NCBI RefSeq assembly: GCF_037414475.1
Contig: NZ_CP147913.1
Coordinates: forward strand, 62,001-126,000
DNA from: Myxococcus stipitatus
GTDB taxonomy: Bacteria; Myxococcota; Myxococcia; Myxococcales; Myxococcaceae
Reading direction: 5' to 3'
Length of the DNA stretch: 64,000 nucleotides
Shown: positions 10,757-12,433 of the stretch, in pieces
How positions within the stretch are numbered: position 1 is the stretch's first letter
Layout: each line of letters opens with the position of its first letter
Translations under genes and position numbers: made by a program
Notes under the pieces: generated by a model
Seen by the model: the letters and a program-made list of their open reading frames with translations, nothing else
What the model was told of the DNA's origin: nothing
Database searches by the model: none

Positions 10757-11494
10757 TCACCGAGGTGGGCGCACACGGCGCCGGGTCCGAGGCCGAGGTC
10801 CCCCTCGCCGAGCCTGTCCTCTGGATGATGAAGCCCGGCGCGGCGGGGCCTTGGTTGCCCCCGGCCCATCCATGCTCTTCATCACCATCTGCTTCAACAG
10901 CGCATACACAGGTGTCGCATCGAACGTGGGGTCCAGCAACGACTGGAGCGCGAGTCCGTCGAAACACGCCTTGATGATGGAGGCGTAGTGTTGATCGATG
11001 GGCTCGGGCTTCGTGTCATCCCCACTGCGATAGCGCGCCACCACCCGCGCCACCTCTGAGTCGCCCTGCGACTGGAGCTCGGCGACCGCGGACGTGAGTT
11101 CCGCGTTGCGAAGTCCCAGCGCGAACAGTTCGTAGCGCAGCCGGAACTGCTCCGGAGCCGAGCGCAGGTGACGCTCCCCCCACGCGAAGCTCGCATCCGC
11201 CAGCTGCTCCAGCGGCGTGTCCTCCCGAAGCCGCCGCAACTCCGCCACATACTGTTGGCTGTGCTCTCGCGTCACCGCGAGCAACAACGCGTCCTTGCTT
11301 CCGAAGTAGTAGTGAACCAACCCCTGGTTCACTCCCGCCACCCGCGCGACCTCCTTCACCGTCGTCGCGTCGTAGCCACGCTCGGCGAGCACTCGGTAGC
11401 TCGCGGCGATGAGCCGGGCGCGAGCATCCGACTCGCCCGCGACCTCCGGCTCCGGCGCGTTGGTTGAGGTCTTGCCGCTGCGTGGTCGAGCCAT
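10757..11494 (-). CDS. TetR-family transcriptional repressor
   Basis: 245 residues, ATG at 11494 with AAGGGAG 4 bases upstream. The N-terminal TetR helix-turn-helix is clear at about residues 24-70 (LIAASYRVLAERGYDATTVK, VARVAGVNQGLVHYYFGSKD). The ligand-binding half is followed by a basic low-complexity tail of about 30 residues (SSRGQARRGGPRPRTRRRV). It is divergent from a barrel-like protein and an RND pump, and the 136-base gap holds two inverted repeats with TTAGT half-sites. By analogy with AcrR-type systems it most likely represses itself and the pump; the inducer is unknown. Confidence 0.92.
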   Translation of the reverse strand: MARPRSGKTSTNAPEPEVAGESDARARLIAASYRVLAERGYDATTVKEVARVAGVNQGLVHYYFGSKDALLLAVTREHSQQYVAELRRLREDTPLEQLADASFAWGERHLRSAPEQFRLRYELFALGLRNAELTSAVAELQSQGDSEVARVVARYRSGDDTKPEPIDQHYASIIKACFDGLALQSLLDPTFDATPVYALLKQMVMKSMDGPGATKAPPRRASSSRGQARRGGPRPRTRRRVRPPR

Positions 11495-11557
11495 CTGTCT
11501 CCCTTAGGACGCACAACTCCCACCTGCAAGGGTGCCACACCCGGCTGCCCGGTCGCC

Positions 11558-11586
11558 TTGACATCGCTCGAGCCCAGTCTTAGTTA
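11558..11586 (+). promoter_or_regulatory. Near-consensus sigma70-type promoter of the efflux operon
   Basis: TTGACA at 11558-11563, a 17-base spacer, then TAGTTA at 11581-11586, reading towards the gene at 11631. The -10 element lies inside the first inverted repeat, so a bound repressor would block RNA polymerase. Confidence 0.7.
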
Positions 11587-11599
11587 GTCGTGTAACTAA
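11580..11599. promoter_or_regulatory. Candidate TetR operator 1
   Basis: Perfect inverted repeat TTAGTTA-6-TAACTAA overlapping the -10 element. Repeats of this kind between a tetR gene and its target are typical repressor sites. Confidence 0.7.
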
Positions 11600-11600
11600 A

Positions 11601-11616
11601 TTAGTCGACCGACTAA
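11601..11616. promoter_or_regulatory. Candidate TetR operator 2
   Basis: Perfect inverted repeat TTAGTCG-2-CGACTAA. Its centre is 19 bp from that of operator 1, about two helical turns, so two dimers could sit on the same face. It ends 4 bases before the GGAGG ribosome site at 11621. Confidence 0.7.
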
Positions 11617-12266: not shown

Positions 12267-12433
12267 GCATCCGAACACCCTCCCCTGTCGAGCGCGTGAC
12301 AGGTCTCGCTCACCACGCAGTCCCCACCCCCGAGACCTTCTTTCACCGTGGTGAGCTTTCCTCCACGACGGCGTCCTTCTTCCACGCGCCGTCCTCCACG
12401 CAGCGCGACGTTCTGGGCGCGGGAGCCAGTGTC

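Follow-up and report, generated by a model that had tools for sequence, protein, structure and literature searches.

Two adjacent putative TetR-type operators on the promoter of a predicted outer-membrane barrel gene in Myxococcus stipitatus, with a separable RND pump downstream

Sequence comparison makes it highly probable that a local TetR-type repressor circuit is encoded in the window (the whole 64,000-nucleotide stretch of M. stipitatus DNA that was analyzed), in which two neighboring palindromes, O1 and O2, lie on the promoter of a small barrel gene divergent from tetR and most likely serve to switch this gene off. Control of this sort, by a TetR protein at two adjacent operators, is nothing out of the ordinary, and the drug-efflux genes located downstream of the barrel gene come and go between species. 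The comparison defines a clear operator for an uncharacterized myxobacterial regulator, and the neighboring TetR protein would probably be assigned the wrong main target if it were labeled an efflux regulator. The features of the locus are given in Table 1.

Table 1. Features of the tetR-barrel locus and the downstream pump genes (positions in the window).
Feature	Position	Strand	Remarks
TetR/AcrR-family regulator, 245 aa, presumed repressor	10757..11494	-	Helix-turn-helix at about residues 28–74
Probable tetR promoter, TTGCAG (11529–11524)-17 bp-TAAGGG (11506–11501)	11501..11529	-	Hexamers inferred
-35 element CTTGACA of the barrel-gene promoter	11557..11563	+	One variable position among 7 across the 26 distinct sequences
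TTAGTTA, holding the presumed -10 TAGTTA and the left O1 arm (20-bp frame)	11580..11586	+	TTAG at 11580–11583 invariant
Putative operator O1, TTAGTCGTGTAACTAA	11584..11599	.	Overlaps the -10 and the expected start site; TTAGT-N6-ACTAA core; found in Hyalangium too
Putative operator O2, TTAGTCGACCGACTAA, perfect 7-bp arms	11601..11616	.	In the expected 5′ untranslated region; degenerate in Hyalangium
Predicted outer-membrane beta-barrel protein gene, 211 aa	11631..12266	+	ORF; first downstream gene; GGAGGA ribosome site just upstream
RND periplasmic adaptor, 375 aa	12434..13561	+	Facultative downstream gene; TIGR01730, 1.8e-71
RND transporter, up to 1214 aa	13558..17202	+	Facultative; start codon uncertain; Pfam ACR_tran, 1.3e-152

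The leftward tetR gene and the rightward barrel gene were found to be separated by an intergenic region of 136 bp. For the promoter TTGACA-17-TAGTTA described within this region in an earlier note on this DNA, the coordinates (TTGACA at 11558–11563 and TAGTTA at 11581–11586) and the 17-bp spacer were confirmed. It is the 17-bp spacing that points to a -10 role for TAGTTA. As a -10 hexamer TAGTTA is weak, sharing only 2 of 6 bases with TATAAT, and a scan for consensus promoters and terminators called nothing at or near the operator site. The case for a promoter is made by conservation and fixed spacing, not by the hexamer.

Regulator orthologues were found in 17 of the 61 genomes searched, the window's own counted, and also in named contigs of Myxococcus, Pyxidicoccus, Corallococcus, Citreicoccus, and Hyalangium, with several genomes represented in both sets. 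After removal of identical sequences, the orthologous intergenic regions from the first four of these genera gave 26 distinct sequences. A multiple comparison of these showed invariant columns at 6 of 7 positions of CTTGACA, all four positions of TTAG (11580–11583), 11 of 16 positions of O1 and 10 of 16 of O2, and the operator columns were conserved above the rest (p = 3e-12 in a rank test, shared ancestry uncorrected). The distance from the -35 element to TTAG was always 16 bp and the gap between O1 and O2 always 1 bp, with differing bases in the spacer; the neighboring segments changed in length (15–25 bp and 12–19 bp). A spacer that is constant in length and variable in bases is what a promoter would give. 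In Hyalangium the -35 element and O1 were intact and O2 was degenerate, down to GGTCGAACGACC, which makes O1 appear to be the principal site. The right half of O1 reads TTAGTTA, TTAGCTA or TTAGTCA depending on the clade and that of O2 reads TTAGTCG or TTAGCCG. Graded repression, which had been proposed from the differing half-sites, found no support, as the half-site that departs from TTAGTCG differs between clades.

The presence of two related inverted repeats was borne out, and they are 19 bp apart, center to center, if O1 is taken in the earlier note's 20-bp frame. In this frame the O1 arms are TTAGTTA/TAACTAA (11580–11586/11593–11599), the O2 arms being TTAGTCG/CGACTAA (11601–11607/11610–11616), and both pairs of arms are 100% complementary. 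In a 16-bp frame (11584–11599), O1 lies 1 bp from O2 with the centers 17 bp apart, and it shares 12 of its 16 bases and the core spacing with O2. Judged as a palindrome, O1 of the window pairs at 5 of 7 arm positions in the 16-bp frame versus 7 of 7 in the 20-bp frame (11580–11599), and the mean O1 arm pairing is 4.7/7 versus 6.5/7. O2 is known in the 16-bp form only, and the changes T11593C and A11594G seen in relatives bring the right half of O1 closer to TTAGTCG. Symmetry alone favors the 20-bp frame; we lean toward the 16-bp frame because of the likeness to O2 and the direction of some of the changes, with TTAG at 11580–11583 reserved for the -10.

The core TTAGT-N6-ACTAA was found twice in the window versus 0.00 times expected from shuffles of it, and O1 and O2 were the sole exact matches in the whole 10.3-Mb genome. 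A genome search for TTAGTCGNNCGACTAA with two mismatches allowed gave one extra site, compared to 13 for the reversed control, and thus no evidence of a wider regulon. A further search for the operator tandem in 195 Myxococcota genomes, also with two mismatches allowed, detected it in 34 genomes belonging to three genera, once in each, and the reversed control pattern was detected in one genome. The tandem adjoined the barrel gene in all 34 loci and tetR in 32, the remaining two loci being shortened by contig ends. Genus-wide, an intact tetR, the barrel gene and the tandem were present together in 17 of 27 genomes, and the other 10 contained none of the three. Because tetR, the operators and the barrel gene pass down together as a single block, their co-occurrence is evidence of linkage, not of binding. 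The palindromes could instead be bound by another regulator than the neighboring TetR protein; however, a pair that is unique in the genome is what is expected of a local regulator, and the ten Myxococcus genomes from which the pair is missing also lack an intact tetR copy, which makes such a reading improbable. Uniqueness in the genome, strict conservation and co-occurrence together back the two TetR-type operators as putative sites of the neighboring regulator: as in a TetR-type operator, the palindromes stand beside a regulator gene and over a presumed promoter.

The regulator matched the Pfam profile TetR_N (PF00440; 3.1e-17, 62.5 bits compared to a cut-off of 24) and also TetR_C_31 and TetR_C_6. 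Its AlphaFold model was all-helical with nine helices (mean pLDDT 80), and the best Foldseek matches of this model were TetR-family structures. Among the NCBIfam models no equivalog reached its cut-off, the AcrR and MtrR models scoring far below theirs. By domain and fold the protein thus belongs to the TetR/AcrR family, with no named equivalog. Residues 53–68 (AGVNQGLVHYYFGSKD) were invariant in 19 orthologues; the invariance of this DNA-reading helix region runs parallel to that of the near-invariant operator cores.

The tetR gene would be driven by its own promoter away from the operators, and its transcript would begin near the tetR start codon. The promoter-like pair read TTGCGG-17-TATGGG in most relatives and TTGC(A/G)G-17-TA(A/T)GGG overall, and the distance between its two conserved blocks was constant in all 26 distinct sequences. 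With this conserved promoter-like block more than 50 bp from O1, and the presumed tetR promoter about 50 bp or more from the operators, direct autorepression is not expected and seems unlikely. The pair is located very near the start codon, which may leave the tetR mRNA almost leaderless.

In the circuit that we infer (from TetR binding and repression, as opposed to activation, to the start sites, the inducer and pump read-through), the divergently encoded TetR-family protein would bind O1 and O2 as dimers and repress CTTGACA-N17-TAGTTA. A dimer on O1 would sit over both the -10 and the expected start site and should for that reason block open-complex formation; O2, just downstream in the transcribed leader, would strengthen the block, and a ligand would release the repressor. 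The centers of the sites are separated by 17 bp, or about 1.6 helical turns, so that the two dimers would lie next to each other but on different faces of the DNA. The dedicated target would be the outer-membrane barrel gene, to which read-through may add the adaptor and RND pump genes in this species. Some TetR-family proteins are activators, and the protein could in principle activate this promoter instead of repressing it, but with O1 on the -10 and O2 past the expected start, a protein bound there would hinder the polymerase, and we regard activation as very improbable. For O2, which would be within the transcript and can pair, a role in RNA as a leader hairpin instead of a DNA operator was also considered. 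However, its fold was no stronger than those of shuffled sequences (z = -0.62), the inner pairs are disrupted by TTAGTCAAACAACTAA in one relative, and O1, which shares the core, would be transcribed only in part; a function in RNA is therefore extremely improbable.

The gene next to the operators did not match any Pfam or NCBIfam family. Its protein model contained eight main strands (mean pLDDT 73), and Foldseek matched it to the 8-stranded barrels OprF, NspA, Ail, OmpA, and OmpW, so that the product is predicted to be an 8-stranded outer-membrane barrel. Compared to the N-terminal domains of OmpA and OprF and to NspA, Ail, and OmpW, strand number and overall fold are alike in the prediction, whereas the identities are only about 10–15%, the TM-scores are modest and the protein here falls into no Pfam or NCBIfam family.

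The adaptor and RND genes begin about 168 bp past the barrel gene. TetR-type regulators are commonly found beside RND pumps, and the region had been described as an efflux promoter between divergent tetR and efflux genes; under this reading TetR would sense a drug and derepress primarily the RND pump, with the barrel gene as a pump accessory. The divergent tetR holds and pump genes do lie downstream here, the adaptor coming after the barrel gene in the same orientation in the window and at 13 other loci, but the immediate downstream gene is not an efflux gene: the barrel gene came first in every operator-bearing locus, and an adaptor gene was near the operators in 14 of the 34. In the other 20 no adaptor was nearby; these include all Corallococcus loci examined, where unrelated genes were found, and several tetR-barrel genomes (G009, G011, G019, G020, and G026) had no close orthologue of the adaptor. 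The opposite case was found in the genome G004 of a relative, in which the operators and the barrel gene are gone and the adaptor (89% identity) is kept with its upstream leader. Here a deletion (L139, 2775–2865) has joined a 61-bp remnant of tetR directly to the last barrel-gene codons, and the adaptor and RND genes run on intact beyond it, as far as the sequence extends. Because barrel loci without an adaptor exist and a pump without operators exists, the pump can, by this comparison, be separated from the regulator-operator-barrel unit in either direction. The pump that persists in G004, where the operators and the barrel gene are lost and only about 61 bp of tetR remain, speaks against the efflux reading, as do conserved blocks belonging to the gap that separates the adaptor from the barrel gene. 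Efflux genes as a direct and conserved target, as in a TetR-controlled efflux divergon, were not found, and primary control of efflux is possible but rather unlikely.

Two blocks in this gap (12267–12433), CCTGTCGAGCGCGTGACA and CCGTGGTGAG, were conserved within the Myxococcus clade and were retained by G004 without the operators. Because G004 keeps them after operator loss, the gap may contain a separate pump promoter. A terminator at the inverted repeat GCTCACCACG/CGTGGTGAGC in the same gap was rejected, as the right arm alone is conserved. No TolC-type outer-membrane factor is encoded between the operators and the pump, the sole outer-membrane gene there being that of the small predicted 8-strand barrel. 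Because many RND operons lack a TolC gene of their own, its absence does not count against the pump being functional.

The nearest known arrangement is the tetR-tetA divergon of Tn10 with tetO1 and tetO2, in which the TetR gene is divergent from its target and two palindromic operators of differing strength, bound by dimers, lie between the genes (PMC3037858). In the locus studied here, a TetR-family gene and its presumed target likewise diverge, and two putative palindromic operators lie between them. The Tn10 operators overlap the promoters of both genes, so that tetR is controlled too (PMC3037858), whereas here both sites lie on the putative target promoter and the presumed tetR promoter would be more than 50 bp off; further, the sites are 16-bp cores 1 bp apart, and the first target is an outer-membrane barrel gene, not a pump. 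As in RND operons of the AcrR-acrAB type, a TetR/AcrR regulator is divergent from a locus with an adaptor and an RND transporter in this species, but the pump genes are second and third here and missing from most related loci, and the regulator is far under the AcrR and MtrR model cut-offs. A literature search, mostly of titles and abstracts, gave no paper with the operator sequence, and among the papers listed none visibly dealt with this regulator or with an efflux system of this locus. Coralinone self-resistance was considered as a related system and rejected, since it works by a protease and is unrelated.

More tentatively, and with a chance that we put slightly below even, a one-promoter TetR regulator may run an unnamed family of small barrels via two adjacent dimers, with the pump as a separable passenger; as far as searched, this would occur within the Myxococcaceae and a Hyalangium relative, and the ligand may be an envelope signal and not a pump substrate. 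The natural variants, barrel without pump and pump without operators, make the assignment of regulator to target testable.

For the RND transporter (1214 aa), family profiles place residue 305 at about profile position 142–154, which suggests an insertion of roughly 150–160 residues in its N-terminal half.
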